From NCBI GenBank assembly GCA_012517605.1, contig JAAYUS010000080.1:1-49233 (forward strand): a stretch of DNA of 49,233 nt, read 5' to 3'. Both the position numbers and the translations under genes were made by a program. This document shows positions 4,684 through 39,063 of the stretch, piece by piece. The notes beneath the pieces are model-generated. The model had not been told where the DNA came from. It saw only the letters and a program-made list of their open reading frames with translations, and did not search any database. The stretch comes from Bacteroidales bacterium. Its GTDB lineage: Bacteria > Bacteroidota > Bacteroidia > Bacteroidales > VadinHA17. The stretch's first letter is position 1. Every line of letters starts with the position of its first letter.

Positions 4684-4751
4684 GGTAAATAATTAGGTTT
4701 ATAGAATTTAAGATTTGAAATTTATCTATTTTTAATCGAAACAAAAAAGGT

Positions 4752-4765: not shown

Positions 4766-4802
4766 TATTCTCTTAAACTACAACCTAATACAAATTCATT
4801 AA

Positions 4803-5831: not shown

Positions 5832-5838
5832 AACGACT

Positions 5839-6153: not shown

Positions 6154-6183
6154 AACATTAACACCTACTAATACCATACTAAA

Positions 6184-7452: not shown

Positions 7453-7496
7453 AATCCTTTGTAATTTCGATTGTTCAAATTGCATTATAAAAATCT

Positions 7497-9634: not shown

Positions 9635-9636
9635 AT

Positions 9637-10416
9637 ATGACGACTGACATAAAAGATATTGTTGATTCCTTTGGCTCTGTTTCACTCGAAGAGACGGATG
9701 CGGTAAAACTTATGGACAGGTATGACACAAAATTACTTCTGCATGTCAGCCGGGTCCCCGAATTACTGAAACTGATGGCAGATAATTACCGGGTTCTGGA
9801 GATCAATGGCATCAGGATCTCTGGATACAATACCACATACCTTGAAACTCCTGATTATATGTTCTATAATCAGCATATTACCGACAGGGATGGACGGACA
9901 AAGGTAAGATTCAGAAAATACCTTTCAACAGGAAAGACATACCTGGAAATCAAAAAGAAGAACAGAAAACATAAAACTGTAAAGTGGAGGATCGAAAACC
10001 ATCTTCATGAAGGTTCCCTTGATCTTACGGCCCGTGAATTCATCAATAATCATATCTCTGTCGATTCTGCCGCTCTTAAACCGATCATTTCGAACAACTT
10101 CAAGAGGATCACTTTTGTAAGATATGATATTCCTGAGCGAATCACACTCGACCTCGATCTTTCTTTTTCAAGACCTGATGGCTTTAGCAGGGAGCTTCCG
10201 CTTGTGGCAATTGCCGAGTTGAAAAGCCAGGGAATTGCCGTAAGATCACCCTTTTCAAAGCTCATCAGAAGCCTGTCTTTTTTCCCGGTCGGTTTCAGCA
10301 AATATTGCACGGGACTGGCCTTGCTTTATGATGTTCCAAAAAAGAATATTCTTAAACAGAAAATTTTATTGTTAAACAGGATTGAAAATGAATATAATGG
10401 AGTCCTTAGTGCCTGA
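9637..10416 (+). CDS. VTC-domain polyphosphate polymerase family protein
   Basis: This 259-residue protein has the triphosphate-tunnel fold signatures of the VTC domain: LMDRYDTKLLLH near the start, YNTTYLETPDY, RTKVRFRKY, TYLEIKKKNRK (paired basic residues facing the tunnel), ITLDLDLSF and VAIAELKSQG. Family members make polyphosphate from ATP or bind it. The ATG at 9637 is preferred to the upstream TTG at 9631, which would overlap the previous gene's stop codon. The 3' end overlaps the next gene by 29 nt. VTC-domain and DUF4956 genes are a known adjacent pair in bacteria, which supports the call. Enzymatic activity is inferred. Confidence 0.82.
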   Translation: MTTDIKDIVDSFGSVSLEETDAVKLMDRYDTKLLLHVSRVPELLKLMADNYRVLEINGIRISGYNTTYLETPDYMFYNQHITDRDGRTKVRFRKYLSTGKTYLEIKKKNRKHKTVKWRIENHLHEGSLDLTAREFINNHISVDSAALKPIISNNFKRITFVRYDIPERITLDLDLSFSRPDGFSRELPLVAIAELKSQGIAVRSPFSKLIRSLSFFPVGFSKYCTGLALLYDVPKKNILKQKILLLNRIENEYNGVLSA

Positions 10417-13183: not shown

Positions 13184-16100
13184 TTATTCTTTTCTGATTC
13201 TGGCAATCAGATCATCTTTTTTCACTGATCGTACGGATATGGCAAGTGCAGCCAGACCTGTAAGAAGGATCAGAAATATCATACCTGCAATTGTGGTCCA
13301 TGGAATGGAAGCATTTCCGGCGATTGAAGGCCTTGTTGCCAGAAGTGCAGATACAACTCCCGTAAGGATACCTGCAACCAGAATAAGTGAATGATCCCTG
13401 AAAATCATCGAACGTATTCTTTTCACCGAAAAGCCTGTTGCCATCATAAGACCAAATTCACGCTTACGCTGGTTGAAATTTCTGATAAGGATGAATCCAA
13501 GGCCCGCAACCCCAAGTATCATTCCTATCCCGCCGAGGATTGTGAAAACTGTGAGATATGTGTTTGTTACCACAAAAAACGATGCAAGACGATCATAAGC
13601 AGGTTCAAAATGTGCTCCGTATTCTGAAAAACGTTCATTAAGAGTGCTTTGATAAATGCCGGTCATTCCCGGATCTCCGTCGGCAAGAAAGATCTGGCTG
13701 CCTGAAATGGAAGGGAAAAAACGGCTGAAATCCCTGTTGCCTGTCAAAACATAACCCTGAAATACTGACGATTTAAGCCCGGCCGAAATTACAATGTTAA
13801 GTATCTGACCGTTCTCAGACCTTATTCTGAGTGTATCACCTGTCCGGATCTTAAGACCGTATTGAAGAACAGTCTGGTCAGCTATGCCATAAATAGTGCT
13901 GTCGTTGGGAGGATTGTTCAGTGTAAGCCATGGATCTGTCTTTTTCAAACCTTTCATCCGGGTGGCAAAGGAAAAGGACCCTCTGCTCACAAATGCCGAA
14001 GGGTCAATTCCCGCAAGAGGGGGAGAGGTTATGTGGTTAAGATTCAGACAGCTTGCGTCATTCCCTGATGTTTTTGCTGCCTGCACAAAAATCAGATCTT
14101 TAAATTCAGCTTCATCCAGCCCGAGATCATGCCTGGTCTCAGCAGAATTAAGGTCACCCTGCATAGGTACAGGTGATTCGCCCCATAAAAGGAATCCGCC
14201 GGTTCCGCCAGATCTCTTAAGCATGGAATCATTAATATCCATCCTGTTGACGCTGGTGATTATAACGGCAAATAATCCTGCGGCAAGAAACAAAACTGGT
14301 GCTATTGCCTGCTGCGGATTGAAGGAATAATATCTGCCTGAAATCATTCGTGCATTCCTGAAACCTGGTGAAACTGAGATCTTTTTCCTTAGAAAACTCT
14401 GCCGTACAATAAGTATCATGGCAGCAAAGGCTGCTATCCCTGCACAAAATGACAGGAGAGTTGATTGCTCAGGAATCAGGAATGATAACGCAGTGATTAA
14501 AACAGTGATGATTGAAAGGGCAACAGCAAGAAAGAAATTCAATTTTGAAGAAGGCTCACGTATCGCTCCCGTTTCTTTTCTGTATAACCGTTTCAGAAAT
14601 CCGGAAGATCTGTACATCAGGATCAGGAAGATCAGCAAAATGCTAATTCCAAATCCCATCAGAAGTGTGCCGGGATAAAAACCTGCACTCAGTGTGTCTG
14701 TCTGCACGGCGCCCTGCCAGACAGAATTCAGGGCCTTTACCACAACAATGTTGAAAAGACTGCCAGCAAGGGCTCCGGGCAGGGCACCGCCCAAAGCAAT
14801 AATTGCTGTCTCTGTTAATAATATCTTCCTTATGCTGCTGTTCCGAAATCCTATCGAAAACAATGTACTGATCTGGTTTCTTTTTGATTCAAGAAAAGTC
14901 GAAACAACGAGAATAAGAAGTATGATCGCTGAAAGGATTATGAAGAATCCCAGACCAAGGAACAGCGAACTGAAATCGACACCGCTGCCGGCAGCATCTG
15001 ATGAAACAGCAGGCAGATCGGTAATCGTAAATCCCGATTTATACGGATCAAGAGCACCTGTTGTTTTTGCATAAATCAGGCTGTCACTAACTCCGTTCGC
15101 AAATCTTATTGAAGTAACAGGACCATAGTTGCTGCCCCATAATTCCTTCCCCTTTTCATAATTAATAAATGCCTTGGGAGTTCCCCTGAATGAATTCCAG
15201 TATTTCTCATCCTTATCCCTTATTAGGTCCATATTAACTGATATTCCGGCATCCCAGGCTGAACACGACTCTTTGCCTGCGATGCCTGGGAATTCAGGCA
15301 TAAGCAGGGAGTCTGACCAGATACCTTTCATCTCAACAATTTCGCTGACTATGAAATCATTTTTGGCTTCAACAAGGCGATTCTTTGAGTCGGGAGTATA
15401 ATAAGTCATTGTCACTGTATCACCTGGTAAGGCTTTCAGATCCTCAGCAATCCAATGGTTAAGGATGATGCCGTTTCCACGGGGCACTCCGGGATAAAGG
15501 TCAGGATCAATGGCAGAAACAAAGGAATATGGAGTCGACCTGTCACCAAGTCTGATGCTGTTGGCAAGGTATGTTATTGCAGGATGTGACTCCAGCGGCA
15601 GTTTTTCAATCTCACCGGCAATGAGATCATCAATGAAGATCCTGTCGGATATAAGTTCATAGCCTCCGGTGGCCGGAATCTTCCTGACTGTCAGGCCTAT
15701 ATCCACGGGATCGATGAATTTGTACAGGCTGTTGTAAATATCCCGGACTGTAATACCTGGTCGTCTTTCAAACAACAGCCTGTTGATACCGGGGAAATTG
15801 TCAATCCTGCCTTTAAGATCGGAAAGACCGATGAAAATGTTTAATGGAGTGATCTGGCTTATTCCCAGCGAGAAATTTCCTGATTGTGAACTGGACAGAA
15901 CTCTTCCGGTTTTGATCACGATGGAACTGGTTGTGCTTTTGTCAGGCGAAAACGGAGCATCGGCAGGAAGATCACTGAGTGTACTGAACCTGATGATAAT
16001 ATCATCGCCTGGTTTGAGATCCAGATAGGATGCAAGCTTTTGATTTATCGCTGCTTCTCCTTTATTTAAAGTTATGGAATCGTTTCCCTGGAATGGGAAA

Positions 16101-16450
16101 AAACTCTCATCGACAGCATAAATTTTGATGGAGGGTGAAGTGGTACCGGTTGAAAAATTCTGGCAGAATCCGTCAATTTCAAGAACGCCGGTCGTTTTAA
16201 GTCCCGTCGCCTTTTCCATCTTACTGCAAAGCATGGGGTCAAAATACCTGATGCCTGAACTGACCATGATTCCTGTTTTGCCGATCTTCTCCAATGATGT
16301 CTTCTTCAGACTGCCCCTGACAGAATTACCTGTCATTAGTGAACCTGTTATTACAGCTGTCAGAAGAATGATGATCAGCACCTGGTAAATAACTCCCTTG
16401 CGGTCGTACAATAATGATTTAAAGGCAATATGACTTAGATTCATCCTCAT
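13184..16450 (-). CDS. ABC transporter permease with two FtsX domains (MacB/LolCE-like)
   Basis: This 1088-residue protein has an N-terminal membrane anchor (VLIIILLTAVITGSLMTGNSVRG), a large extracytoplasmic region, an FtsX module at about residues 490-630 (FFIILSAIILLILVVSTFLESKRNQISTLFS...), a second soluble region, and a C-terminal FtsX module (about 965-1088, ILGGIGMILGVAGLGFILI then RKREFGLMMATGF). With two modules in one chain it could work without a second permease. It starts 5 nt after the ATPase stop, so the two form one transporter. Such systems act on the periplasmic side (lipoprotein release, extrusion of molecules or mechanotransmission). It is the last gene of the redox operon; cargo unknown. 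An alternative start is ATG 16444. Confidence 0.88.
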   Translation of the reverse strand: MRMNLSHIAFKSLLYDRKGVIYQVLIIILLTAVITGSLMTGNSVRGSLKKTSLEKIGKTGIMVSSGIRYFDPMLCSKMEKATGLKTTGVLEIDGFCQNFSTGTTSPSIKIYAVDESFFPFQGNDSITLNKGEAAINQKLASYLDLKPGDDIIIRFSTLSDLPADAPFSPDKSTTSSIVIKTGRVLSSSQSGNFSLGISQITPLNIFIGLSDLKGRIDNFPGINRLLFERRPGITVRDIYNSLYKFIDPVDIGLTVRKIPATGGYELISDRIFIDDLIAGEIEKLPLESHPAITYLANSIRLGDRSTPYSFVSAIDPDLYPGVPRGNGIILNHWIAEDLKALPGDTVTMTYYTPDSKNRLVEAKNDFIVSEIVEMKGIWSDSLLMPEFPGIAGKESCSAWDAGISVNMDLIRDKDEKYWNSFRGTPKAFINYEKGKELWGSNYGPVTSIRFANGVSDSLIYAKTTGALDPYKSGFTITDLPAVSSDAAGSGVDFSSLFLGLGFFIILSAIILLILVVSTFLESKRNQISTLFSIGFRNSSIRKILLTETAIIALGGALPGALAGSLFNIVVVKALNSVWQGAVQTDTLSAGFYPGTLLMGFGISILLIFLILMYRSSGFLKRLYRKETGAIREPSSKLNFFLAVALSIITVLITALSFLIPEQSTLLSFCAGIAAFAAMILIVRQSFLRKKISVSPGFRNARMISGRYYSFNPQQAIAPVLFLAAGLFAVIITSVNRMDINDSMLKRSGGTGGFLLWGESPVPMQGDLNSAETRHDLGLDEAEFKDLIFVQAAKTSGNDASCLNLNHITSPPLAGIDPSAFVSRGSFSFATRMKGLKKTDPWLTLNNPPNDSTIYGIADQTVLQYGLKIRTGDTLRIRSENGQILNIVISAGLKSSVFQGYVLTGNRDFSRFFPSISGSQIFLADGDPGMTGIYQSTLNERFSEYGAHFEPAYDRLASFFVVTNTYLTVFTILGGIGMILGVAGLGFILIRNFNQRKREFGLMMATGFSVKRIRSMIFRDHSLILVAGILTGVVSALLATRPSIAGNASIPWTTIAGMIFLILLTGLAALAISVRSVKKDDLIARIRKE

Positions 16451-16455
16451 AGCTG

Positions 16456-17139
16456 TTATTTCTGCATGCCGGTGACCTGAAAAAGCTTTCCTTCAGAAAG
16501 GTTGTACCTCAGTTTCATCTTGCCGGCAAGTTCAGCCGAATGTGTGGCAACAATCAGTGTAATGCCATATTCATTGTTCATCCTGACAAGAAGATCTCCC
16601 AGGTTTTCAGCATTTTTTCTGTCGAGAGAGCCGGTTGGTTCATCTGCAAGCAGAATGGATGGTCTGTTAACAAGTGCCCTGACCAGGGTTGCTCTTTGCG
16701 CCTCCCCTCCGGATATCTGATCGGGATACTTGCCGGCAAGCTCAGTGATGCCGGTCTTCTTCATCATTTCTTCAGCATCTTCAACCCTTTTGTCAAACTC
16801 ATTTCCCGAAATCTCTGAAGCCAGAAGCGGAAGGAGTATATTCTCTTTTACCGTCAGATACGGCAGGAGAAGATGTTCCTGGAACACGAATCCTATATTC
16901 TTGTTCCTGTAGGAAGCGGAACTATCCTGATCATAATCAAGTATCCTGACTCCCCTGAAAAGCAGATCTCCACTGTCGGGTCTGTCGAGTAACCCTATAA
17001 TGTTAAGCAGAGTGGTCTTTCCAGACCCCGAAGGGCCAGCTATTGATATTGAATCACCCTCATTGACGGTAAGTGTCAGTTCATTAAGAACTACGCCCCT
17101 CTGCTGGAAGGATTTTGTGATGTTCTTTATTTCAAGCAT
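16456..17139 (-). CDS. ABC transporter ATP-binding protein, LolD/MacB type
   Basis: This 227-residue protein has a complete nucleotide-binding domain: Walker A GPSGSGKT (35-42), Q-loop Gln87 in FVFQEHLLLPYLTV, signature SGGEAQ (143-148), Walker B ILLADEP (162-168) and switch His200. The ENILLPLL and SGGEAQRATLVRALVNRP segments place it with LolD/MacB/FtsE-type ATPases that power FtsX permeases. Its start overlaps the glycosyltransferase stop by 8 nt and its stop lies 5 nt before the FtsX permease. The domain gives no substrate information. Confidence 0.93.
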   Translation of the reverse strand: MLEIKNITKSFQQRGVVLNELTLTVNEGDSISIAGPSGSGKTTLLNIIGLLDRPDSGDLLFRGVRILDYDQDSSASYRNKNIGFVFQEHLLLPYLTVKENILLPLLASEISGNEFDKRVEDAEEMMKKTGITELAGKYPDQISGGEAQRATLVRALVNRPSILLADEPTGSLDRKNAENLGDLLVRMNNEYGITLIVATHSAELAGKMKLRYNLSEGKLFQVTGMQK

Positions 17140-18433
17140 TTTTCACTGTTTTTTCATATACTGAGGCAAGTCCTTCTGACATCCTGGCAAGGGAAAATTC
17201 TTTACGAACGTTGTTTATACCGTCAGATCTGAGCTGTGCCAATTGCTCCCTGTCGGTAAGAAGATTATAAAGTGAAGTTGCAAGCTCTTCCACCGTATCT
17301 GGTGAATAGATAATACCACCGCCTGTCTTTTCGACTATCTCAGGAAATGCTCCCGTGTCAGGCTGTACTACCGGGATCCCTGAAGCATTTGCTTCAAGAA
17401 GGTACAGTCCATATCCATCATATTTACGAACCGGAACTGTAATGACATCGACATCATTGAAGAACCTCATTTTCCCTTCACCCTGAAAGTCGGGATATAT
17501 ATGAATGCTTTTCGCAAGTCCTGCCTCCCTGATTTTCTTAATCTGATCTGAAAGAAACGGTTTATCAATTCCCGTGTATCCTCCGCACACATTGAGTGTC
17601 AGACCGGGTATACGATCCTTCTTTTTGAGCTCAATAAAGGCATCGACAAGCTTGTCAAAGCCATTATGGTAATTCACCCTGCTGAAATACCCTATTGCAG
17701 AAGGTGACGGTCTCACAGCAGGTACAGGATCGCCTTCGGGATCAAAACCAAGCGGAATTATCGACACATTATTGCCATTGATACCCGTTCTTTGCAGAAA
17801 AAAGTCTTTGTAATACCTGCTGGGGGTGACAAATGAGTCGACATAAACGGCTTCCCTGGCGATCATTTCCCAGGCCCTGGATCTGAAAGGTTCAGCCATA
17901 TCATCTATCCAGTCATCCTCATTCAGGAGGGAGCATACAACCTTTACGTCCATCCGTTTTTTGAGCTGCCTTGCAATTCCCAGGATAAGGGCATTGGAAA
18001 GATGGATTATATCTGGTTTCCCATCCCGTGAGAGATATCTTACCAGCCTGTCGACTTCTGATTTTCTGAATGCATTGTCGCCTTCAATCATATTGATGGT
18101 AAGCTCCTCATATCCTTCAGAGCTGGTTGTACCGGCCTGTTTTGCGGCAAGTTTCAGAAAAAGGTCTGTGTCGAGGAGTTTATCAAAAAAAGCAGGCATG
18201 TTCCTGAGAAATTTTACCTTTTCTCTCAGATACATCGATATGGCGCCAAAAAACACATTGTTGTCGAAGCCGCTTTCCTTCAATGTTGTCTTGTCGGGAG
18301 GCAGATACAGCGGAATGGCTTTAGCATCTATGCCAGGCACTTTGCGTATTGCCCTTACATAAAGCATATCGCGGTAACAATTTCCGCAATAGAATGATCC
18401 TCCGGAACCAGTAATAAGATATACTATTTTCAT
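17132..18433 (-). CDS. GT4-family glycosyltransferase with an N-terminal CGNC loop
   Basis: This 433-residue GT-B protein opens with MKIVYLITGSGGSFYCGNC; the C-terminal half has the donor-binding part of GT4 (GYFSRVNYHNGFDKLVDAF, LNVCGGYTG, VPVRKYDGYGLYLLEANASGIPVV, with the E-x7-E-like KYDGYGLYLLEA). Start ATG 18433 is preferred to a TTG 24 nt upstream because the family starts at MKI. The CGNCYRD motif in the glycine-rich loop is unusual for GT4. I recall similar CG[NT]C...RDN openings in uncharacterised glycosyltransferases of other phyla, so it is probably a family trait. It lies between a propeller gene (4-nt gap) and the ABC ATPase (8-nt overlap). Acceptor unknown. Confidence 0.85.
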   Translation of the reverse strand: MKIVYLITGSGGSFYCGNCYRDMLYVRAIRKVPGIDAKAIPLYLPPDKTTLKESGFDNNVFFGAISMYLREKVKFLRNMPAFFDKLLDTDLFLKLAAKQAGTTSSEGYEELTINMIEGDNAFRKSEVDRLVRYLSRDGKPDIIHLSNALILGIARQLKKRMDVKVVCSLLNEDDWIDDMAEPFRSRAWEMIAREAVYVDSFVTPSRYYKDFFLQRTGINGNNVSIIPLGFDPEGDPVPAVRPSPSAIGYFSRVNYHNGFDKLVDAFIELKKKDRIPGLTLNVCGGYTGIDKPFLSDQIKKIREAGLAKSIHIYPDFQGEGKMRFFNDVDVITVPVRKYDGYGLYLLEANASGIPVVQPDTGAFPEIVEKTGGGIIYSPDTVEELATSLYNLLTDREQLAQLRSDGINNVRKEFSLARMSEGLASVYEKTVKNA

Positions 18434-18437
18434 TTCA

Positions 18438-19553
18438 TTATTTTTTACCGAAAGCAAGGAGCCTTCCGTCTTCAGTCAGAATAAAAAACCTGTCGCCTGA
18501 AACGGCCGGAGAGCTGCTTACGGGAGCCCCTGTATTAAAGCTCCATATCTTTTTCCCGTCAGCCTGATTAAGCATGTAGACATAACCGTCGAGACTCCCG
18601 AAGATGACCTTTGTGGGGGTAAGGACTGCGGAACCTGTTATCCTCCCGTTTGTTCTGAACTTCCATCTGAGCCTTCCGGTAATGAGGTCATAACAATACA
18701 TATATTTGTCCTCATTTCCCACAACCACTAAATTCCTGCCTATAGCCGGTATTGAAAGAACCGATCCTGAATTTTCATTTGCCTTTACCTCCCAGATCAG
18801 TTTTCCCGTAAGCATATCGAGGCAGTAAAGGTTTCCGTCGTAATCCCCGAAACATGCTTTTCCTCCTGAAAGGGCAGGGGAGGAGGCAATGTACACTCCT
18901 ATCTGGATCGTATCTTTTTCCCTTCCTGTAACTGCATCAGCAACCCTTATGATGCCGTCACATCCTCCGAAAACAATATTATTATTCAACACCGAGGGAG
19001 TTCCGTTCACATAGTTTTCCGTTTCGAGCTTCCACTGAAATCGGCCGTTTACCGGATTAACCGAATGCAGGAAATAGTCATAACTGCCCACTACAATGCC
19101 TGAACTTTTTCCTGTGCTCCAGTAATTTGCCGATCCGACAATCTGGTTGTCGGTCTTGTATTTCCAGAGAAGTTTTCCGGTAGTCCGGTCAACCGAATGC
19201 AGTGAACCATCGCCAAAGCCTGTAATGACACTGTTCCCGTAAACAAGCGGCGGGGATTCTGCGCTCCCGCCTCCTTCATACTTCCACTTCAGTTTACCGT
19301 CATTTTCCACAGCCAGGATGGTGCCCTTGTCAGTTCCGAAGAAAATGGTGCCGCTGCTGATTACAGGAGAGGACCTTGACCTGGTACCTGCTGAATAACT
19401 CCATAATAATGAGGGGGATGAAGTAAGCTCATTGGCAGTAAAACCGGTAAGATCAGATTTACCCCTGAAAACAGGCCATTCCAGTTCCGGATCCTGTGCA
19501 GAAACCGATTGGAAAATAAAAGCAGCTAATATGTATGGCAACAGTTGTTTCAC
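18438..19553 (-). CDS. Secreted PQQ-like (BamB-type) beta-propeller protein
   Basis: This 371-residue protein begins at a GTG at 19553 that overlaps the preceding stop as GTGA; the frame then encodes a clean signal peptide (KQLLPYILAAFIFQSVSAQ). An upstream ATG at 19598 would put 15 extra residues before it and overlap the Fe-S gene by 49 nt. After EWPVFRGKSD come seven to eight short regular blades: DNDGKLKWKYEG-like, DRTTGKLLWKYK, NPVNGRFQWKLE, DAVTGREKD, DMLTGKLIWEVK, DLITGRLRWKFR, NQADGKKIWSFN. No catalytic or cofactor residues of PQQ dehydrogenases are seen. It is probably a periplasmic docking or scaffold protein for the redox operon. Confidence 0.85.
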   Translation of the reverse strand: MKQLLPYILAAFIFQSVSAQDPELEWPVFRGKSDLTGFTANELTSSPSLLWSYSAGTRSRSSPVISSGTIFFGTDKGTILAVENDGKLKWKYEGGGSAESPPLVYGNSVITGFGDGSLHSVDRTTGKLLWKYKTDNQIVGSANYWSTGKSSGIVVGSYDYFLHSVNPVNGRFQWKLETENYVNGTPSVLNNNIVFGGCDGIIRVADAVTGREKDTIQIGVYIASSPALSGGKACFGDYDGNLYCLDMLTGKLIWEVKANENSGSVLSIPAIGRNLVVVGNEDKYMYCYDLITGRLRWKFRTNGRITGSAVLTPTKVIFGSLDGYVYMLNQADGKKIWSFNTGAPVSSSPAVSGDRFFILTEDGRLLAFGKK

Positions 19554-20620: not shown

Positions 20621-23024
20621 TTTTTACATCCACTAGTTCAATGGCGCTTTCAGGGCAGACTACCCTGCAGTTGTCGCATTTCGTACATTTCGACTGGTCT
20701 ATCTCATGTTTCTCATAGGGCCGGAAGTCAATAGCGCCCACAGGACACTCCTGAAAACACTTTGTACACCCTGTGCACTTATCTGTTATTAAGTATTTTA
20801 CAAGATCCCTGCATCTTTTTGCCGGGCATATCCCCCTTGCATGGGCTTCATATTCCTCCCTGAAATATTTAAGGCCGGTAACAACAGGATTGGGCGCTGT
20901 TTTGCCAAGACCGCACAGACTTCCGTCCTTTACCTCATAGCAAAGATTCTCGAGCTCATCTAAATCAGCCAGGGATGCCTTACCCTGACTTAACCTGGTA
21001 AGAATATCGAGCATTTGCTTTGTTCCAACCCTGCAGAATGTACATTTGCCACATGATTGTTTGTGGGTGAAATCAAGAAAATACTTCGCCATGTCAACCA
21101 TGCAGTCTGTATTATCAAGAACTACCATTCCTCCTGATCCCATCATTGCGCCCATTCTTGTAAGCTCTTCATAATCGACAGGCGTTCCGGCCATTTCAGC
21201 AGGAATACAACCTCCTGAAGGGCCTCCTATCTGAACAGCCTTGAATGTCCTTCCCTCTGCCACGCCACATCCTATCTTTTCTACAATATCCCTTACAGAA
21301 ATACCCATGGGGACTTCAATAAGTCCTCCCTTTGCTACCTTCCCTGCAAGTGCAAATACTTTTGTTCCCTTGCTTTTGTCAGTTCCGATTGAGCTGAATG
21401 CCTCAGGGCCGTTATTGATTATCCATGGCACCAGTGCCAGTGTTTCGACATTGTTCACAAGCGTAGGGAAGCCCATGAATCCTTTCTCGGCAGGATAGGG
21501 GGGACGAAGATGAGGAGTACCTCTTTTCCCTTCAAGTGAAGCAATGAGGGCGGTTTCTTCACCACAGACAAAAGCACCGGCTCCTTCGAAAACCTCAATT
21601 TCAAAAGAAAAGTCGCTTCCCAGTATGTTTGATCCTGTCAGCCCTTTATCGGAACATACTTTCAGTGCATTTTTAATACGGGTTACTGCAAGCGGATATT
21701 CCGCGCGTATGTAAAAAATACCCCTGTTGGCGCCTGTTGCAAATCCTGCAATCAGCATTCCTTCGATGATCCGGAATGGGAAAGACTCCAGCAGCATCCT
21801 GTCCATGAATGCGCCAGGGTCACCTTCATCGCCATTGCAAACCACGTATTTTGTTGCGGATACTGATGCGGAAGAGATCTCCCATTTGCGTCCTGTAAGA
21901 AAACCGGCACCGCCTCTTCCCCTCAGTCCGCTGCTCTTAATTGTGCTGATGACTGAGCTCCTGTCGCCTGTCATCAGGACATTTCTCAAAGCACTGAAGC
22001 CACCGAGAAGCTTATATTCATCATAGGAGTCAGGAGTCATCATCCCCCCGTTGAGGGTTGCAAGATGTTTCTGGGCCTGAAGGAAATTATTCAGGGTTTG
22101 TTCCCTGACCTCGCCCGGCAGATTGACGGGACTGTAAAGCATGTCATCCGAAAGAAATGTATCTGCAATATTGTTTATCGTGAACTTTAACTTCTTATTC
22201 AGGGACCTCGGTTTTATGTGTTTCAGCAGAATCTCTTCAACCTGGTCTTTCCTTACATTTGTGTACCTTGTGCTTTTATTTTCAGGGCTGACAATTTCAA
22301 GAAGGGGCGTTTGATTGCATACTCCCACGCATCCGACAGGCTTTACCTTGATATTCAGTTCATAGAATTCACGGATGTCTGAAAGTTTTGAAAGGATCTC
22401 CTTGCTGCCGCCTGCAACACAGCACGATCCAAGACCTATCCTGACTTCAGCATCAAAATCATCCTTTACTGTTTTACTGTCATGGCCCTTCCTGCTTCCC
22501 TGCGATTTCAGGAAATCATTTACTATCTCATTCACCTGGGTCGGTTTAACATGACCATAAGTTTTGTTGTCGATCTGAACCACAGGGGCCAGTGTGCAGC
22601 AGCCGAGACATGCCACTTCCTCAATTGAGAACAGGTTGTCGGGCGAACTGTTCCTCTCTTCAGTTATCTTAAGATCCCTTTTAAAGGCTTCCGAGATCAG
22701 CTGTGAACCTTTGACATGACAGGCAGTCCCTGCACATATCTTAATAGTATGTCTTCCTGCCGGTATATGCCTGAACTGTGAATAGAAAGTTGAAACCCCT
22801 GAAATTTGTCCGGGAGTGATGTCAGTTATCCTGCAAATATGTTTAAGAGCTTCAGAGGGAAGGTAATTGAGCTTCTTCTGGACCTCCTGAAGGATAAGAA
22901 TAACCTTGTTCTTTCCTGTCCCGGTTTCCTTTACCACCGACTCAACAGCAGAATTGATCTCCTCAACTGTCAGAGATTTGCCTTCGCAGTTACAGGCTTT
23001 TATATCTTCCTTTGTGTTTTTCAA
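20604..23024 (-). CDS. Fused NuoE-NuoF/HydB-like NADH dehydrogenase subunit
   Basis: This 806-residue protein has these domains in order: NuoE-like [2Fe-2S] thioredoxin fold (Cys97, 102, 139, 143); a second thioredoxin-like [2Fe-2S] domain (Cys201/202, 232, 236); the NuoF FMN/NADH domain (GLRGRGGAGF 367-375, then GAGAFVCGEETALIASLEG) with its 4Fe-4S site (Cys658, 661, 664, 704); and two C-terminal ferredoxin clusters (Cys750-760 and 780-790). Separate HydC and HydB carry these same parts in electron-bifurcating hydrogenases, so this is a one-chain version. It should oxidise NADH, or reduce NAD+, with FMN in the cytosol. The start is a TTG overlapping the preceding stop (TTGA); no ATG lies near. 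No hydrogenase catalytic subunit is encoded nearby. Confidence 0.9.
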   Translation of the reverse strand: MKNTKEDIKACNCEGKSLTVEEINSAVESVVKETGTGKNKVILILQEVQKKLNYLPSEALKHICRITDITPGQISGVSTFYSQFRHIPAGRHTIKICAGTACHVKGSQLISEAFKRDLKITEERNSSPDNLFSIEEVACLGCCTLAPVVQIDNKTYGHVKPTQVNEIVNDFLKSQGSRKGHDSKTVKDDFDAEVRIGLGSCCVAGGSKEILSKLSDIREFYELNIKVKPVGCVGVCNQTPLLEIVSPENKSTRYTNVRKDQVEEILLKHIKPRSLNKKLKFTINNIADTFLSDDMLYSPVNLPGEVREQTLNNFLQAQKHLATLNGGMMTPDSYDEYKLLGGFSALRNVLMTGDRSSVISTIKSSGLRGRGGAGFLTGRKWEISSASVSATKYVVCNGDEGDPGAFMDRMLLESFPFRIIEGMLIAGFATGANRGIFYIRAEYPLAVTRIKNALKVCSDKGLTGSNILGSDFSFEIEVFEGAGAFVCGEETALIASLEGKRGTPHLRPPYPAEKGFMGFPTLVNNVETLALVPWIINNGPEAFSSIGTDKSKGTKVFALAGKVAKGGLIEVPMGISVRDIVEKIGCGVAEGRTFKAVQIGGPSGGCIPAEMAGTPVDYEELTRMGAMMGSGGMVVLDNTDCMVDMAKYFLDFTHKQSCGKCTFCRVGTKQMLDILTRLSQGKASLADLDELENLCYEVKDGSLCGLGKTAPNPVVTGLKYFREEYEAHARGICPAKRCRDLVKYLITDKCTGCTKCFQECPVGAIDFRPYEKHEIDQSKCTKCDNCRVVCPESAIELVDVKNEDKN

Positions 23025-24739
23025 TTTTCAGAAATGCAAAAAATGTTATTTCTACTTCTTATATAAATGTTTTTATCAGAAAATGCCGGAGTGCAGTCGG
23101 CCGGTTCTCCTATCGGCGATTCAGCGAGCAATTCATATTTTCCGCTTTCCTTAACTATATGCATCATTCCGCTCCGGTCGAGAAACCATACCTTTTCATC
23201 AGCTATCACTGGAGAAGCATAAAACTGATCCATGAAATAATGAGTCCACAGGGTATCGCCCTTCTGTGAGTCATAACAAACAACATCACCATTACCCGTT
23301 GAGAGGAACAGAAATTTGTCGGTTGCTACAGGGCTCGAAACATCGGGGGTGAATGTATTATCTTCCCAGGCGATTGAAGGCCCCGGGCCTGGCTTAATTG
23401 CAGCAAGCCTGGCATAATCGGTTACAGCATATACCATTGAGCTGTTAACTGCAAGGGATGGCGCCACATCGCCTGTAAGAACCTCAAGCGACCAGAGTTC
23501 CTTTCCGGTTGCTGGATCAAAGGCAGTGACTTCCGGATTTCCGTTTATCACAACCTGTGGCTGTCCGTTGAAGTGAGCAATGACAGGGGAGGCCCAGCTT
23601 GCCCTTCCTCGTCTTAGAGTTTCCCATTTCTGTTCACCTGTCGAAGTGTCAAAACCCATGACTGAAACCTTTTCATTCGAATCGAACTGAACTATCAGTA
23701 AGCCATCATATATCACCAGTGAGCATGAATATCCATAGACATTGCTTGGGATTCCGATATTTTTTGACCATTTTTTGTTTCCGTCGTGATCGAAACATAA
23801 AAGGTTTCCGTTGGCAAAGATCGCGCATACCGATTTTTCGTCAGTTGCCACACTTGACACAGCAAGGCCCGCCTCCATATCTGTTTCAGGCGGAACTGCA
23901 GGTTCTCCTTCAATACCTGATCCCGGGGCTGTCCATAAGATCTGCCCGGTATTCTTGTCGAGGCAGTATACTTCGCAGGATTTGCCCTCGGCACCTGTCA
24001 CAAAAAGCCTGTCACCCCATATCACAGGGGAGCTTTTCCCATTCTTCGGAACGGCAGTCTTCCATTTTATGTTCCTGCCTTCTTCCCCGTTCCATTCAAC
24101 CGGATAACCTGAACCGCCTGCAATTGCCCTTCCATCCTTTCCCCTGAAAAACGGATAATTCGTGGCATCGGGTTTGAAATCACCTGCAACAGACCCTGAT
24201 GAAGATTCCCTGTCTTTTTTCCTTTCTTTTCTTTCAGCCCTGGCAGATGCTTTTCCGCTCAGGTCGGGAAGGTCACTCCTTAACATAAATGAGGAAATGA
24301 TCGCGGCAACCGTTAGAAATGCCACAGTGCCGGCCAGATATTTTGCATACAGGGCTTTCTGTGTTACCTGATACTGCCGTTCCCCGGGAATTGAAGGGAT
24401 GCTCTTTTCACTACCGGCTATGATTCTTTGGCATATTACGAAAATGATTGCTCCGGCAAGCAAAAGGTAAGATCCTGTTTCGACCTGACGGCGTGATGCG
24501 AAATAGGCTTTTCTTGCCATGAGGTCAAGGGCTCTTACCTGCTCTGCCTTTAAGGCATTGTCAGGATTTTTATCGTACTCTTCCTTTATGGAACTGATTG
24601 CCGGATTATCGAGCGGATCCATTGCTTTAAGCTGGATCAGGCTCAGCAGCATAGTAATTGCAACAATCAGGGTAAAAACACCGGATCCAATGCTTATTCC
24701 CCTGATTATCTTAAGGTCTTTTTCTTCAAACTTTATCAT
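23021..24739 (-). CDS. Membrane-anchored PQQ-like beta-propeller protein with three TM helices
   Basis: This 572-residue protein starts at ATG 24739, overlapping the NapH-like gene by 14 nt; the open frame upstream lies inside that gene and was excluded. Three hydrophobic helices (GVFTLIVAITMLLSLIQL, SYLLLAGAIIFVICQRIIAG, LAGTVAFLTVAAIISSFML) precede a basic/Ser linker and a PQQ-like propeller that enters at NYPFFRGKDG. It has blades such as DKNTGQILWTAP, DTSTGEQKWETL, DPATGKELWSLE and DSQKGDTLWTHY. By topology the propeller lies outside the membrane. It sits between the NapH-like polyferredoxin and the NuoEF-like subunit, exactly where a membrane partner would be expected. I know of no characterised protein with this architecture. 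Confidence 0.82.
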   Translation of the reverse strand: MIKFEEKDLKIIRGISIGSGVFTLIVAITMLLSLIQLKAMDPLDNPAISSIKEEYDKNPDNALKAEQVRALDLMARKAYFASRRQVETGSYLLLAGAIIFVICQRIIAGSEKSIPSIPGERQYQVTQKALYAKYLAGTVAFLTVAAIISSFMLRSDLPDLSGKASARAERKERKKDRESSSGSVAGDFKPDATNYPFFRGKDGRAIAGGSGYPVEWNGEEGRNIKWKTAVPKNGKSSPVIWGDRLFVTGAEGKSCEVYCLDKNTGQILWTAPGSGIEGEPAVPPETDMEAGLAVSSVATDEKSVCAIFANGNLLCFDHDGNKKWSKNIGIPSNVYGYSCSLVIYDGLLIVQFDSNEKVSVMGFDTSTGEQKWETLRRGRASWASPVIAHFNGQPQVVINGNPEVTAFDPATGKELWSLEVLTGDVAPSLAVNSSMVYAVTDYARLAAIKPGPGPSIAWEDNTFTPDVSSPVATDKFLFLSTGNGDVVCYDSQKGDTLWTHYFMDQFYASPVIADEKVWFLDRSGMMHIVKESGKYELLAESPIGEPADCTPAFSDKNIYIRSRNNIFCISEN

Positions 24740-26012
24740 CCGATCTCTTATTATTAACATGGACAGGGCAATATTTAAAGCATCTGCCGCAACTGTAACA
24801 TTTACCTTTATGAGGCACATAGCCGGCCCTCCTTGTTCTTGTTGCAAGAGAAACGAGGCTCAGGCCGAAGGAAATTCCCAGGAACAGGCCGACCCATGAC
24901 GATCCTTTCCTGAAACGTTCATGAATCTTCAACTCTTCGGCAAAAAGCTCAGTCTCGGTCTTCCCTGCTTCCTTGAAAGCAAGCGCAGCTTTGGATACAG
25001 CCGGAATACCGTTCTCCTTTTCTGCCCTTATCTCCCTGGCAAGCTGTACATTGCTGTTCAGGCCTGTCAATGCTGGTGAAAGATTCCTGAAAAGCAACAA
25101 ACCGCCTGCTGCAAAAAGCGGGATAAGAAGCACATAGACAAGGAACCTCCTTCTTTCCTTCTGCGGTTCTTCAGGAGGTGCTGAAACATCAGAAGGAAGT
25201 ATGGCATCGTACGGGCATACATCTTCGCACAGCCGGCAGTTTGTGCATTCCGCCGGAGTTATTGTAAGGTGCCGCGAAGAAAACCTTGAGAAGATATTGA
25301 GAAGAACGCCGTAAGGGCAGAAATATCTGCAATATGGCCTGTTTATGAATATACCGGCAACCAGGAGAAGCCCTCCGAATATAACCATCGTATAAGGGGC
25401 GTTAAGCCTGAAGATACCTACAAAGGGATCATACCTGCAAATCAGAAACTGGCTTTCGGTTGCCGCCGACAAAACTGCCAGGCCAAGATAGATGAACGGG
25501 ACAGAAATCATAACTGATTCCACTGCTTTCGGAAGTTTAACCGGGCGGAAACCTGTAAGTTCCTGTATCGCGCCCAGCGGACATACACCTGCACAGAAGA
25601 CCCTGCCAAAGGCGAGTGCATAAACAAGCGGTATTATAAAAAACAGCAAAACGGTTATGGGAATTGTATAATCGCTGTTGAAAAGGGCCAGCGCTACGTT
25701 CTGCACCGAACCGACCGGACAAACACACCCTTCCCTGACGAATCCGAAATATGCCAGTGAAAAAACTGATAACCACAGGAGGCCTTCCCTCGAACGTTTC
25801 TTTAAAGCAAGCCATGATGCCAGGGATAATGTACCTATCAGAAGGGCCAGGTCAATATATTCCCAATAAGGCGCTCTCTGCAGCGGCATCTGGTGTTCAG
25901 GATAAACATATCCCGACTCAAATTCCGGTCTGGGAAACCTGTCCTGCGCAACCATTACAGCATGCCATCCCAGCATCAGAAACAACAAAATATATGGTAA
26001 CTTCTTTTTCAA
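24726..26012 (-). CDS. NapH/NosR-like membrane polyferredoxin
   Basis: This 428-residue protein has about six to eight membrane helices. Cysteine motifs sit at helix ends: CVCP (96-99), CAGVCP (140-145) and CRYFCP (228-233), the last two being the CxxxCP type of NapH and NosR. Two 4Fe-4S sites follow, at Cys256-266 (CTNCRLCEDVCP) and Cys405-415 (CYSCGRCFKYCP). NapH/NosR relatives carry electrons across or along the membrane, often from quinol or a flavoprotein. The start is a TTG at 26012; there is no in-frame ATG nearby and the first helix follows directly. It lies 70 nt after the Tat ferredoxin gene, and this gap carries a purine-rich heptamer repeat. Confidence 0.87.
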   Translation of the reverse strand: MKKKLPYILLFLMLGWHAVMVAQDRFPRPEFESGYVYPEHQMPLQRAPYWEYIDLALLIGTLSLASWLALKKRSREGLLWLSVFSLAYFGFVREGCVCPVGSVQNVALALFNSDYTIPITVLLFFIIPLVYALAFGRVFCAGVCPLGAIQELTGFRPVKLPKAVESVMISVPFIYLGLAVLSAATESQFLICRYDPFVGIFRLNAPYTMVIFGGLLLVAGIFINRPYCRYFCPYGVLLNIFSRFSSRHLTITPAECTNCRLCEDVCPYDAILPSDVSAPPEEPQKERRRFLVYVLLIPLFAAGGLLLFRNLSPALTGLNSNVQLAREIRAEKENGIPAVSKAALAFKEAGKTETELFAEELKIHERFRKGSSWVGLFLGISFGLSLVSLATRTRRAGYVPHKGKCYSCGRCFKYCPVHVNNKRSDDKV

Positions 26013-26039
26013 TCTTTTACTCTTTATTTTTAACTTCTT

Positions 26040-26071
26040 CCTTTCTCCTTTCTCCTTTTTCCTTTCTCCTT
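26040..26071. repeat. Heptamer tandem repeat before the NapH-like gene
   Basis: About four and a half copies of CCTTTCT occur on the plus strand. Read in the direction of the genes this is AGAAAGG, creating several AAGGAG stretches 28-60 nt upstream of a TTG start. It fills the only sizeable gap inside the 12-gene operon. Repeats of this kind change copy number by slippage. Confidence 0.6.
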
Positions 26072-26082
26072 ATGCTCAGATC

Positions 26083-26658
26083 CTACTCTCCTCCAACCTT
26101 CTTCTCCTTCGGAATATACTGCATCCTGTCGCTCACCCGTGACACTGCATCCGACGGGCAATTTCTTGCAATTGAGCATTCATTGCAATATACGCACAGA
26201 TCCTGGTTGATCTGGAGATATAGTGAGCCGTTGCCGAAATCAGCGCATCCCTTGACACATTTTCCGCAACCATCGCAGAGGTCCTCATTAATGGTATATT
26301 CAAAATATGGTTCCTCGACAAATTTTCTTGTTATTGCAGCGGTAGGGCACATCTGATCCTCTGCCGCGGTGCTGATTGTCTTCACTCCCTGCCGAAGATA
26401 TCCTCCGCACAGGTCGCAATAACCGCACATAACATATGCATGCACGGCCTTGACAGCAGACGGAGTCAGAACACAATTGGTCTTGCACTGACCGCATTGA
26501 GTACATTTGTGGGGATCAATCTGCCATACATTCCCTGATGCTGAGACCTTCTTCGAAAGTACCAATGGAAGGCCTATAACCGGAGCAACAACAAGAATCT
26601 TTCCGGCTTTACGGACAAAATCCCTCCTTGACTGGTATATGTTCTTTTTCTCTTTCAT
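26083..26658 (-). CDS. Tat-exported four-cluster ferredoxin, NapG-like
   Basis: This 191-residue protein has a twin-arginine signal: SRRDFVRK at 10-17 followed by a hydrophobic stretch (ILVVAPVIGLPLVL). Sixteen cysteines form four 4Fe-4S sites: 52/55/58/62, 78/81/84/104, 128/131/134/138 and 155/158/161/167. This is the plan of NapG and related periplasmic ferredoxins, which are folded with their clusters before Tat export and work with a NapH partner; a NapH-like gene is next in the operon. The start ATG lies 7 nt after the 56-aa gene. The signal may stay uncleaved as a membrane anchor. The periplasmic location follows from the Tat motif. Confidence 0.88.
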   Translation of the reverse strand: MKEKKNIYQSRRDFVRKAGKILVVAPVIGLPLVLSKKVSASGNVWQIDPHKCTQCGQCKTNCVLTPSAVKAVHAYVMCGYCDLCGGYLRQGVKTISTAAEDQMCPTAAITRKFVEEPYFEYTINEDLCDGCGKCVKGCADFGNGSLYLQINQDLCVYCNECSIARNCPSDAVSRVSDRMQYIPKEKKVGGE

Positions 26659-26665
26659 CTCTTAG

Positions 26666-26836
26666 TCATTTTTTTCTGTCACATTCGCTCTTTCCGCTGC
26701 AAGACGATTTCACGGGACAGCCTGAACAACCGCTGCCTGAAACAACCCGGTTCCCGACTGCAAAAACAATAAAGGCGAGAAGAAGCCATAATCCTGCTCT
26801 GACGATGCTTTTTATGAAACCTGTTCTGTCTGTCAT
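26666..26836 (-). CDS. Small Cys-rich single-TM protein, 56 aa
   Basis: This 56-residue protein is MTDRTGFIKSIV, then one membrane helix (AGLWLLLAFIVFAVG), then a Cys tail CSGCPVKSSC...C. Layout and size resemble the FeoB-associated Cys-rich membrane proteins, which are short helices with a Cys-rich metal- or cluster-binding tail. The ATG at 26836 overlaps the stop of the upstream propeller gene as ATGA, and the stop lies 7 nt before the Tat ferredoxin start. This tight placement strongly supports a real gene despite its size. There is no feoA or feoB nearby. A role as a small metal/Fe-S accessory is inference. Confidence 0.75.
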   Translation of the reverse strand: MTDRTGFIKSIVRAGLWLLLAFIVFAVGNRVVSGSGCSGCPVKSSCSGKSECDRKK

Positions 26837-27747
26837 TTTCTTTCAAAAATATAAAGTTTCGAATCCGTTTTGTCGGCTGCATAAATCCTTGTTCCGTTGT
26901 CTGTGGCAAGGTCGAGTGGAACTGACTTATCGAAGGAATTCCGTGATGAGACAAATTCAACAAAGCTGCCTTCACGATTGAGTATTTTTATCCTGTTAAT
27001 TCCTTTTTCGGCGGTCACAATACCATTGGGAACGATCACAATATGGGAAGGATTGCAGCATCCGCAGAATGCTCCGGGAGCCGTTCCCGGTTCCCCGAAT
27101 GCGTATATCATTTTTCCGTCGGGGCTCCATGTTTCGATCCTGCGCCTGCCGGGGTTGGCCACAACAAGATTATTATCCGACCAGTCCAGGTCAAAATAAG
27201 GACTTGGAATTATGAAATGATCGCCCGACTGACCGATCATTGATATGACATCACCGTCCCTTCCCAGCAAAAAGATCCTTTTGCTGCCGGCATCCGCAAC
27301 CGCAAGCATGCCATGATTAGCCGACAATGATGTTATAATTGCGTTACCTTCGTAGGGGCCCCATTCATTCAGTATTTTTCCATTTTTTGAAACAACCAGA
27401 ATTGTTTCCTGCGTTGATGCAAAGATAGTATCGCCTGAAACCGCCAGTGCGGTAATCTCTTGCTCTGTTCCGGTGTTCCATAGTTCCTTATAACCCGGGT
27501 CAATAGCTTTTATGAATGTATCGCCTGCCAGGCAGATCATTCCGTTATCAGAAACAGCAACAGACGAAAGCCTGCCTTCATCTACACTTATAGTCCGGGT
27601 TATTTTCCAGTTATCAGTATATGTTGTATCACGGGAAGTCTCTGACACAGGTTCCCTGTCGGAACCTGAGGTCGCATCATAAATAATGTAACCCATGAAT
27701 GCAAGGATGATGGTCAGGGCAAATATGGCCGAAAGCTTTTTATTCAT
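26833..27747 (-). CDS. Membrane-anchored NHL-like beta-propeller protein with CGCC motif
   Basis: This 304-residue protein has an N-terminal signal anchor (LSAIFALTIILAFMGYIIYD) and a Ser/Thr/Asp-rich spacer. A six-bladed NHL-type propeller follows, with GRLSSVAVSDNG, SLSANHGMLAVADAGSKRIFLL, FDLDWSDNNLVVANPGRRRIETWS, GIVTAEKGINRIKILN, PLDLATDNGTRIYAADKTDSKLYIF. In blade four the loop GAFCGCCNPSHI (Cys228, 230, 231) is unusual and could bind a metal or Fe-S cluster, or form a disulfide. The start overlaps the upstream propeller stop by 4 nt and the stop overlaps the small Cys-rich gene by 4 nt. It faces the periplasm. I recognise no enzyme family. Confidence 0.8.
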   Translation of the reverse strand: MNKKLSAIFALTIILAFMGYIIYDATSGSDREPVSETSRDTTYTDNWKITRTISVDEGRLSSVAVSDNGMICLAGDTFIKAIDPGYKELWNTGTEQEITALAVSGDTIFASTQETILVVSKNGKILNEWGPYEGNAIITSLSANHGMLAVADAGSKRIFLLGRDGDVISMIGQSGDHFIIPSPYFDLDWSDNNLVVANPGRRRIETWSPDGKMIYAFGEPGTAPGAFCGCCNPSHIVIVPNGIVTAEKGINRIKILNREGSFVEFVSSRNSFDKSVPLDLATDNGTRIYAADKTDSKLYIFERK

Positions 27748-29210
27748 GATCCGTGATTTTTACCGATATAGAGACAAAGCAGGTTCCGCGCATCCCTCAT
27801 GATAAGGTAATTACCGGCTATTGCCATTGGTCCCCAGGCTTCGATTCCTTTTATGACAGAGTGCCGGGATATAAGTTCCGCCTGTGAGCCGTTAAGCCTG
27901 AAATAATATAGATTGGCATCATCGTCGAGAAGCAGCATTTTTCCATCCTTGACAATATATGGACCCAGGCCTCTTCCGAATCTTCTGTCTTTACCGCTGC
28001 TCCAGACAGGATTCCTGAGGTCGGACCGGTTGTAGCAGACAAGCTGTTTCTTGAGTGGACCTGCATTCTCTGGCATCACTGTCCATACAAAATCACCTGT
28101 TATGACAGGTGTTTGCTGGTCGCTGGAAATGCCTTCTGTTGCTTTATGGGACTCGACAACAGAAGCAGAAAATCCCGAACCGTCATAATCGATCCTGAGT
28201 CTTGCACCTCCGGCGCCATAACTTCCGAAAACAGCTATTTCATTATTACCAAGGTAAAGCGGTGATGCAGCTGTTGTTGCAGGGCTCCATTCCCTGGTTG
28301 ACCACAGCAGCTTTCCGGTTTCGGGTCCTTCAGCAGCAACACCTGCAACACCGCCAACAGCGTTATAAACATACATCCTCCGTCCGTGTATTACCATTGG
28401 AATGATTGAACCATGCGACATCCTGAGTGAATCCGGATTTGGAGTACGCCACATTATCTCACCATCCGAGCACCTGACACCTATCATCAGTGCTTTTGCA
28501 CCCGGAGCAAGAACTGCTACATCGTTGTCAATCAGCGGGCACTGGCCTGAATAAAAATCGGGAGTGACCTTCCCCTTTTCACTTCCGGGAACACCAAATT
28601 CCTTCTCCATGTCAATGGTCCACAACAGATTGCCTGTTATTGGATCAAGGCACATGACATGCGATCTTGGCCCAACGGTTACAAGATATTTATCGGTAAC
28701 AGCCGGGACAGTTCTGGAATATCCATGATTTCTTTTCAGTTCAACATAATACCATCTTCTCCACAGCTCGGTTCCGCTCTTAAGTGAAAAACACCTGAGC
28801 ATGTCGGCCTTCCGCCTTTCATTGTAATCTAAGATATAAACCCTGCCATTCAGAACGGCAGGACCTGCATATCCTTCACCAAGTGTTGTTTTCCATACTA
28901 TGGGAGGACCTGCAGTATCCCATGATTCTGCAAGTTCAAAAGAATCCCTGGCAATGTTACTGAAATCTGTTCCGCGAAACCTGGGCCATGATCCTGCAAC
29001 TATCTCATCCATGACACCGAGTGAATCGTAAAACTCGCCGACCACAACACTGTCAGATCTTGGCTCGATTTTGGGACGGTTATCCATTCCCGGAACGCGC
29101 ATAACCATTTCAGCAGGATAATGATCATCGGCAAGCCACCAGACAAGAACTGCAGCCAGTATCACGGATACAATCCCTGTATAAAGTATATTTCTGTTCT
29201 TCCTTATCAT
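27744..29210 (-). CDS. Membrane-anchored PQQ-like beta-propeller protein, first gene of the redox operon
   Basis: This 488-residue protein has an N-terminal anchor (NILYTGIVSVILAAVLVWWLA), a linker, and a propeller entered at SWPRFRGTDF. Its blades are less regular than in the other propellers of the operon (SLKSGTELWRRWYYVEL, DPITGNLLWTID, CSDGEIMWRTPN, GPETGKLLWSTR, LVCYNRSDLRNPVWS). PQQ-type dehydrogenase active-site residues are not seen. It is the promoter-proximal gene: upstream lies a 643-bp region shared with asnB, with a candidate promoter 20-50 nt before this ATG. It ends with an ATGA overlap into the NHL-like gene. It may be the extracytoplasmic receptor or docking unit of the system. 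Confidence 0.82.
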   Translation of the reverse strand: MIRKNRNILYTGIVSVILAAVLVWWLADDHYPAEMVMRVPGMDNRPKIEPRSDSVVVGEFYDSLGVMDEIVAGSWPRFRGTDFSNIARDSFELAESWDTAGPPIVWKTTLGEGYAGPAVLNGRVYILDYNERRKADMLRCFSLKSGTELWRRWYYVELKRNHGYSRTVPAVTDKYLVTVGPRSHVMCLDPITGNLLWTIDMEKEFGVPGSEKGKVTPDFYSGQCPLIDNDVAVLAPGAKALMIGVRCSDGEIMWRTPNPDSLRMSHGSIIPMVIHGRRMYVYNAVGGVAGVAAEGPETGKLLWSTREWSPATTAASPLYLGNNEIAVFGSYGAGGARLRIDYDGSGFSASVVESHKATEGISSDQQTPVITGDFVWTVMPENAGPLKKQLVCYNRSDLRNPVWSSGKDRRFGRGLGPYIVKDGKMLLLDDDANLYYFRLNGSQAELISRHSVIKGIEAWGPMAIAGNYLIMRDARNLLCLYIGKNHGS

Positions 29211-37352: not shown

Positions 37353-37358
37353 AATACA

Positions 37359-39035: not shown

Positions 39036-39063
39036 TCTTCACAACCTAATATAAACCGTAATT

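Follow-up and report, generated by a model that had tools for sequence, protein, structure and literature searches.

Which reaction is served by an operon that joins a module for reduced nicotinamide adenine dinucleotide (NADH), a chain of iron-sulfur (Fe-S) proteins and several propellers? The question is raised by twelve reverse-strand genes, P1 to P12, on contig JAAYUS010000080.1 of a Bacteroidales bacterium (assembly GCA_012517605.1); the whole stretch of 49,233 nucleotides (nt) that was analyzed is called the window. In this study, the operon is tentatively read as a membrane-spanning electron-export system, through which electrons of NADH, and perhaps of ferredoxin, would reach a redox reaction in the periplasm, possibly one on an isoprenoid lipid. 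We regard this as a serious possibility that stops somewhat short of being probable, and we infer electron direction, confurcation, cluster wiring and substrate from the sequences. If the reading is true, anaerobic Bacteroidota would have a heme-free route for sending low-potential electrons of NADH and ferredoxin to the periplasm.

The twelve genes form one tight operon. As the first-pass annotation of this DNA had stated, they are closely packed apart from a single 70-nt gap (26083 to 26012); all other spacings, computed from the list of open reading frames (ORFs), are overlaps or gaps of at most 7 nt. The domain make-up described there was recovered in Pfam and NCBIfam searches: FtsX in P12, ABC ATPase in P11, GT4 in P10, PQQ_2/BamB-like in P9, Fer2/Fer4_20/Nqo3-like in P8, NuoE, NuoF and two 4Fe-4S domains in P7, a propeller with N-terminal transmembrane helices (TMs) in P6, NapH-like in P5, NapG-like in P4 and PQQ_2 in P1. 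P2 had no Pfam match and a single weak NHL-type NCBIfam match, and P3 of the window had no Pfam match. Membership of P3 in a known Cys-rich family was considered and rejected, since one relative gave a weak, chance-level match and the window protein none. The operon also encodes no cytochrome c, as noted earlier: the CxxCH motif occurs in 0 of the 12 proteins. The transmembrane relay from NADH to the outside that had been proposed fits the evidence but is incomplete; it overlooked a core of the electron-bifurcating Bfu type, the dispensability of the NADH module and a linked terpenoid cassette. In a search confined to the open-licence literature, neither the operon nor the cassette was found described. 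Bfu enzymes with many third substrates, and pairs of NapH-like and extracytosolic proteins, are already known; that literature yielded no combination of the two with propellers and a terpenoid cassette.

Distribution and gene order

An alignment scan with P4 confirmed at least 523 relatives in at least 585 stretches, and the locus counts given here use the best 80. By record title, all of these 80 loci belong to Bacteroidota, and the assignments include Prolixibacteraceae, Marinilabiliales, Rikenellaceae, Tannerellaceae, Prevotella, Saprospiraceae and Cytophagales; records of named strains (Maribellus sediminis, Ancylomarina, Tangfeifania) carry the operon. P5 was sought in 60 relatives, and 20 loci were fetched. 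The first-pass annotation had asked for a gene-neighbourhood search and named an order lost beyond one strain as grounds for giving up its proposal; the order recurs in the 20 loci, other families included, as far as the contigs extend, and in most of the 80. Counting only loci with room, and genes on the strand of P4, P4 is followed by P5 (78/78), P6 (72/73), P7 (58/68), P8 (46/58), P9 (47/52) and P10 (37/50), and is preceded by P1 (67/71) and P2 (67/75); P11 and P12 lie mostly outside the stretch examined. This conservation of order excludes chance.

Deviations occur. The ten loci that had room for P7 but did not show it in the count above include L094 and L103; in L094 only P4 and P5 are visible and a run of N lies behind P5, so that this locus was not taken as a minimal system, and in L103 P8 stands ahead of P4 and P2 behind P6. 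The operons of Prevotella and Rikenellaceae showed no P10. A d1-type propeller, like the one convergent with P12 in the window, adjoins P12 in several relatives. The system is patchy: in a sample of 198 genomes of the order, P5 occurs in 34. Locus L119 of Prevotella, where P3 is missing, has a P2 relative (8932-9957) with a Tat-like signal and a C-terminal CxxCxxxC. Five loci (L104, L108, L113, L121 and L124) share a permease about 7.5 kb before P4 on the same strand, presumably of ArsP/YraQ-like type.

The cytosolic module and the membrane pair

The closest solved structures to P7 are NfnB (9n5u), 8oh5 and 9bov, which we take to be of the Stn type, and HydB chains of bifurcating hydrogenases; complex I ranks behind. 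P7 was aligned to NfnB across 600 residues and also to HydB-type chains (the set being 9n5u_B, 8oh5_B, 9bov_B, 7t2r_B and 7q4v_B). By Pfam and alignment, it has the 51-kDa FMN/NAD domain (FMN, flavin mononucleotide) of BfuB, NADH_4Fe-4S and a C-terminal 4Fe-4S dicluster, together with the NuoE-type 2Fe-2S domain of BfuC. Its H728, C733, C738 and C641 correspond to H525, C531, C536 and C438 of the NiFe-Bfu enzyme (7t2r_B), and S679, neither Cys nor Thr, stands at the position of C476. According to a family survey, the Bfu family is defined by a BfuBC-type core, the second cluster with a His ligand is conserved in nearly all BfuB, and the C476 position is Thr in about two thirds of the family (PMC9304861).

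In P8, Fer2_4 scored above its cut-off, Fer4_20 and Nqo3 slightly under theirs, and the PDB matches were of BfuA type; Pfam gave no match to a domain for flavin adenine dinucleotide (FAD) or nicotinamide adenine dinucleotide phosphate (NADP) in its 356 amino acids (aa). The 53 P8 relatives listed include 25 long forms (504-533 aa) and 22 complete short ones. In L103 the long form aligns with NfnA and with the 9bov/8oh5 chains, FAD stretch included, but the alignment jumps about 155 residues at the NADP part. An NADP motif was found in 0 of the 25 long forms, in a motif search run without a positive control, and a GxGxAG pattern in 15. The NADP outlet of a transhydrogenase-like enzyme appears to have been removed in the P8 line.

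Judged from these features, P7-P8 is a core of the electron-bifurcating Bfu type and no generic NADH dehydrogenase. The earlier label of an NADH-dehydrogenase module was right about the FMN/NADH domain; structure matches and cluster ligands correct the rest. With the Bfu enzymes HydABC and StnABC/NfnABC (PMC9304861), P7 has in common the domains of the BfuBC core and most of the B2-site ligands, and P8 the BfuA domains. Here, however, a single protein combines BfuB and BfuC, and the BfuA relatives are without the NADP part, P8 in addition without the FAD domain, whereas type 1 enzymes (Nfn/Stn) have an NADP(H)-binding domain in BfuA; moreover, the core is encoded next to a transmembrane polyferredoxin and to extracytoplasmic propellers. 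In the survey, 17 clades are unassigned and some Bacteroidetes are counted under Nfn (PMC9304861); the operon might give an unassigned Bfu branch a function. In the export reading, this core would take electrons from NADH and, if it acts like its relatives, merge them with those of reduced ferredoxin. Since P8 relatives with an FAD domain lack the NADP site, and P8 lacks both FAD and NADP parts, the outlet would no longer be NADPH. With that outlet gone and a transmembrane Fe-S pair next to it, P5-P4 is read as a new path to the third substrate.

All 15 Cys of P5 are among its positions conserved at 95% or more. In 46 sequences, C140/C144 and C228/C232 (two CX3CP motifs) and C256-C266 (a ferredoxin domain) are invariant. 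The AlphaFold model of P5 has a predicted local distance difference test score (pLDDT) of 78, with helices at 5-20, 48-72, 75-92, 119-135, 162-184, 207-222, 283-318 and 353-390. A plain hydropathy scan gave seven segments, missing 75-92, and would place the ferredoxin domain outside; the eight-helix topology is preferred because the model shows eight. If helices are counted from an N-terminus on the inner side, as the signal-like start suggests, the cytosolic sites would be the CX3CP motifs, the ferredoxin domain and the C-terminal CxxCxxCxxxCP, while C96, C98 and C192 would lie outside. A fold search with P5 returned no significant match, which carries little weight for a helical model. In P4, 16 Cys are invariant in 12 NapG-like sequences, which suggests four 4Fe-4S sites, and its Tat-like signal has RRxF in 11 of the 12 and RKxF in one. 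Electrons could then pass from the cytosolic Fe-S sites of P5 across the membrane to the outer Cys site (C96, C98, C192) and, as topology and homology suggest, to the exported four-cluster ferredoxin P4.

Like NapGH and NosR/RdhC/MauMN, the pair places a membrane protein with CX3CP motifs and a ferredoxin domain beside an exported multi-cluster ferredoxin. It differs in falling far under the family cut-offs (P5 60.8 bits against 213.05 for NapH TIGR02163; P4 19.2 bits against 178.85 for NapG/MauM TIGR00397), in an additional CxC...C site placed outside and in the coupling to a Bfu core; nitrate reductase and an FMN domain are absent from the operon. The NapH match spans only 108-274 of P5, a stretch that includes neither the C-terminal cluster motif nor the outer CxC site. 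NapH-like proteins paired with extracytosolic oxidoreductases are already known, as two papers report (PMC8238504, PMC5928378); in the first, NapH-like proteins of flavinylated systems are used modularly with extracytosolic oxidoreductases including the ethanol oxidase ExaA. Such modular use is common to both, but no FMN-binding domain match was found in P1, P2 and P4-P12 (P3 is without any Pfam match), and the propellers score under the cut-off for dehydrogenases dependent on pyrroloquinoline quinone (PQQ).

The propellers and the linked terpenoid cassette

On the outer side, P4 and the small Cys protein P3 might feed at least one of the membrane-tethered PQQ-type propellers (P1, P6, P9 and P2). 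Conservation was assessed in 86 sequences of P1, 82 of P2 and 40 of P3. P1, with dozens of polar residues invariant among the 86, would be the strongest candidate for the unit that performs catalysis or binds the substrate. Its model (pLDDT 89) is nearest in fold to BamB, YxaL and tetrathionate hydrolase; with BamB and tetrathionate hydrolase it shares the fold at 10-16% identity. Topology of P6 was predicted as N-in/C-out in 81 of 92 orthologues and as the reverse in 9, and two had other than three TMs. A cytosolic propeller, suspected from a positive stretch after the third TM in the window protein, found no support across these orthologues. The P6 ORF of the window has four hydrophobic segments when the long start is used; ATG 24739 is more likely the start than the listed TTG 24847, and it keeps the overlap with the previous gene. 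P9 is probably secreted, from our reading of its N-terminus, and scores 151 bits against the BamB model (cut-off 285). The glycosyltransferase (GT) P10 and the transporter P11-P12 could act on the substrate or the product by glycosylation and export, or by extraction from the membrane.

A five-gene cassette encoding a ferredoxin, a radical S-adenosylmethionine (SAM) protein, a DUF116-prenyl synthase, a toroid protein and a class II-like terpene cyclase is linked to the operon. ORF clustering of the 80 loci revealed recurrent upstream genes: propeller-like ORFs in 52 loci, a squalene-cyclase-like protein in 10, a histidine kinase with a LytTR regulator in 5, and radical SAM with prenyl synthase in 4. 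Where at least 8 kb before P4 could be seen, the cyclase was present in 10 of 28 loci of the more distant group and in 0 of 23 of the nearer one, always on the strand of P4. In L119 the genes from the radical SAM protein to P1 and beyond overlap on one strand; in G018 the cassette lies directly behind P8, and in G007 upstream with regulators. The window's own genome has it on another contig, C59 (L147 5511-11733). Among the 198 genomes of the order, 10 have the cyclase, and 8 of these 10 belong to the 34 that have P5 (p=1.2e-5, or p=5.8e-5 when the window's own genome is left out; both uncorrected for kinship of the genomes). Strong radical SAM matches fell in the same 10 genomes, with two weaker ones elsewhere, and in the 60 relatives the cyclase was found in 8, all with a strong P5 match. 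This linkage suggests an isoprenoid-derived lipid as substrate or carrier in some species.

The cyclase has SQHop_cyclase domains and a VPDxDDT stretch, which we presume to be akin to the class II DxDD motif. In these respects it resembles squalene-hopene cyclases, with the radical SAM protein resembling the HpnH type. Both differ in scoring under the family cut-offs (103.5 bits against 431 for hopene cyclase, 44.7 against 225 for HpnH), and none of the five cassette proteins reached the cut-off of a family match shown; the fused DUF116-prenyl synthase and the second, small toroid protein are further differences. A compact terpenoid cassette is thereby named, with a product not described. Close to the cassette of the window's own genome, at L147 1015-1894, inspection by eye showed two small proteins with one CxxCH site each, so c-type cytochromes probably exist in the organism.

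Observations against export and the other readings

Several observations weigh against the export of NADH electrons as set out above. First, ten operons without P7 and P8 keep most of their other genes; several of them also lack P2, and the nine that could be placed form one clade in the P5 tree (support 0.971). When P7 was sought in two genomes without it (99% and 97% complete), the lowest E-values belonged to paralogues at 45% and 41% identity, compared with 71-73% in two genomes with P7. Since this clade lost the NADH module and kept most other genes, the module is a replaceable input and NADH not the sole possible donor; the remaining system must get its electrons from elsewhere. Second, P5 could receive its electrons from menaquinol, as NapH does, since MenA, MenD or MqnC exceeds its curated cut-off in 25 of the 34 genomes of the order that have P5. 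The operon might therefore work like NapGH: menaquinol would feed P5, with P7-P8 as a side input or reducing the quinone via P5, which would make the system an NADH:menaquinone or menaquinol:periplasm oxidoreductase. The CX3CP motifs and ferredoxin domain of P5, the operons without P7-P8 and these markers, with MqnC in the window's own genome, agree with such a role. The short and low-scoring NapH match of P5 and the retention of P7 behind P6 in most operons with room argue against it, and on balance we consider it somewhat unlikely.

The scarcity of MenA in P5-positive genomes (8/34 against 79/164, p=0.013; MenD 8/34 against 57/164, p=0.23) had suggested electron transfer free of quinones, an idea that was dismissed because MqnC of the futalosine route exceeds its cut-off in 17 of the 34. 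P5-positive genomes seem to favour the futalosine over the classical menaquinone route, with MqnC counted in P5-positive genomes and not in P5-negative ones at large.

Third, the fold of P1 is common to non-redox scaffolds such as BamB, and its invariant polar residues are weakly enriched before inner strands (19 of 47, in 112 of 419 positions; p=0.02). The propellers may thus be BamB-like scaffolds that form, together with the ABC/FtsX transporter, a machine for export or envelope assembly, in which the Fe-S chain would only keep thiols or clusters reduced. The fold neighbours BamB and YxaL point that way, as do L114 and L119, where the ABC and FtsX genes are present though the GT is missing; the dozens of invariant polar residues of P1 are not expected of a scaffold, and three Fe-S proteins with a Bfu core would be a large investment. 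We regard this alternative as improbable.

PQQ-dependent alcohol dehydrogenases have an adjacent Cys pair at the cofactor. No such pair occurs in P1, P6 and P9, and the best propeller score against the PQQ-dehydrogenase model TIGR03075 was 81.9 bits (cut-off 480.05), so that neither feature of those enzymes is found in these three proteins. Both facts bear on the opposite direction of flow, in which a propeller would oxidize a periplasmic substrate and the Bfu core would bifurcate the electrons to NAD+ and ferredoxin. The potential of a PQQ-level donor is, besides, much too high for the reduction of NAD+ and ferredoxin unless a proton-motive force assists. For inward flow speak the reversibility of Bfu enzymes described in the family survey (PMC9304861) and the clusters of NapH-like proteins with ExaA (PMC8238504). 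Weighing these points, inward flow seems improbable.

Finally, the terpenoid link is partial: the cyclase is absent from 26 of the 34 P5-positive genomes, and two of the 10 cyclase genomes (82% and 97% complete) lack P5, the latter, G591, having the cassette alone and no operon. In a phylum sample of 394 genomes (minimum completeness 80; E<=1e-40), the window's own genome was the only one with P5 and the only one with the cyclase. Since 26 operon genomes lack the cyclase, the cassette is optional for the operon. A more specific form of the export reading, in which a new Bfu class would push NADH and ferredoxin electrons through a cytochrome-free Fe-S wire to periplasmic propellers acting on or with an undescribed cyclized isoprenoid made by the cassette, possibly a new membrane redox lipid, appears rather unlikely.

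Coordinates and neighbouring genes

Table 1. Features of the operon and its borders in the window.
Feature	Positions	Strand	Description
Operon P1-P12	29210 down to 13184	(-)	Twelve ORFs, single strand
Intergenic region ahead of P1	29211..29853		643 nt, divergent from asparagine synthase gene; likely promoter region
P1	27744..29210	(-)	488-aa PQQ-type beta-propeller, N-terminal membrane anchor; first gene of the operon
P2	26833..27747	(-)	304-aa NHL-like propeller, membrane anchor, conserved Cys-Cys pair C230-C231
P3	26666..26836	(-)	56-aa single-TM protein, four conserved Cys (C37, C40, C46, C52)
P4	26083..26658	(-)	NapG-like ferredoxin, Tat-like signal, 16 invariant Cys
P5	24726..26012	(-)	NapH-like membrane polyferredoxin, eight predicted long helices, 15 conserved Cys
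P6	23021..24847	(-)	Three-TM protein with extracytoplasmic PQQ-type propeller, 608 aa as listed
P7	20604..23024	(-)	BfuC-BfuB (NuoE-NuoF/HydCB) fusion, FMN/NADH domain, Bfu-core cluster motifs
P8	19550..20620	(-)	BfuA-like (NuoG-N-like) 2Fe-2S/4Fe-4S protein, 356-aa short form without FAD domain
P9	18438..19598	(-)	386-aa PQQ/BamB-like propeller
P10	17132..18457	(-)	GT4 glycosyltransferase
P11	16456..17139	(-)	ABC transporter ATPase
P12	13184..16450	(-)	1088-aa FtsX-type ABC permease, ten hydrophobic segments
d1	11818..13167	(+)	Convergent 449-aa PQQ-type propeller after P12

Elsewhere in the window, a rhamnose-use cluster with alpha-L-rhamnosidase, RhaT, RhaA and an FGGY kinase occupies positions 1927-8864. 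It is followed at 9631-10416 by a VTC-domain protein, presumably of the polyphosphate polymerase type. On the other side of the operon, a run of large same-strand ORFs (32927-41920) is headed by a sulfatase gene at 32927-34354, the sole annotated ORF of the run.

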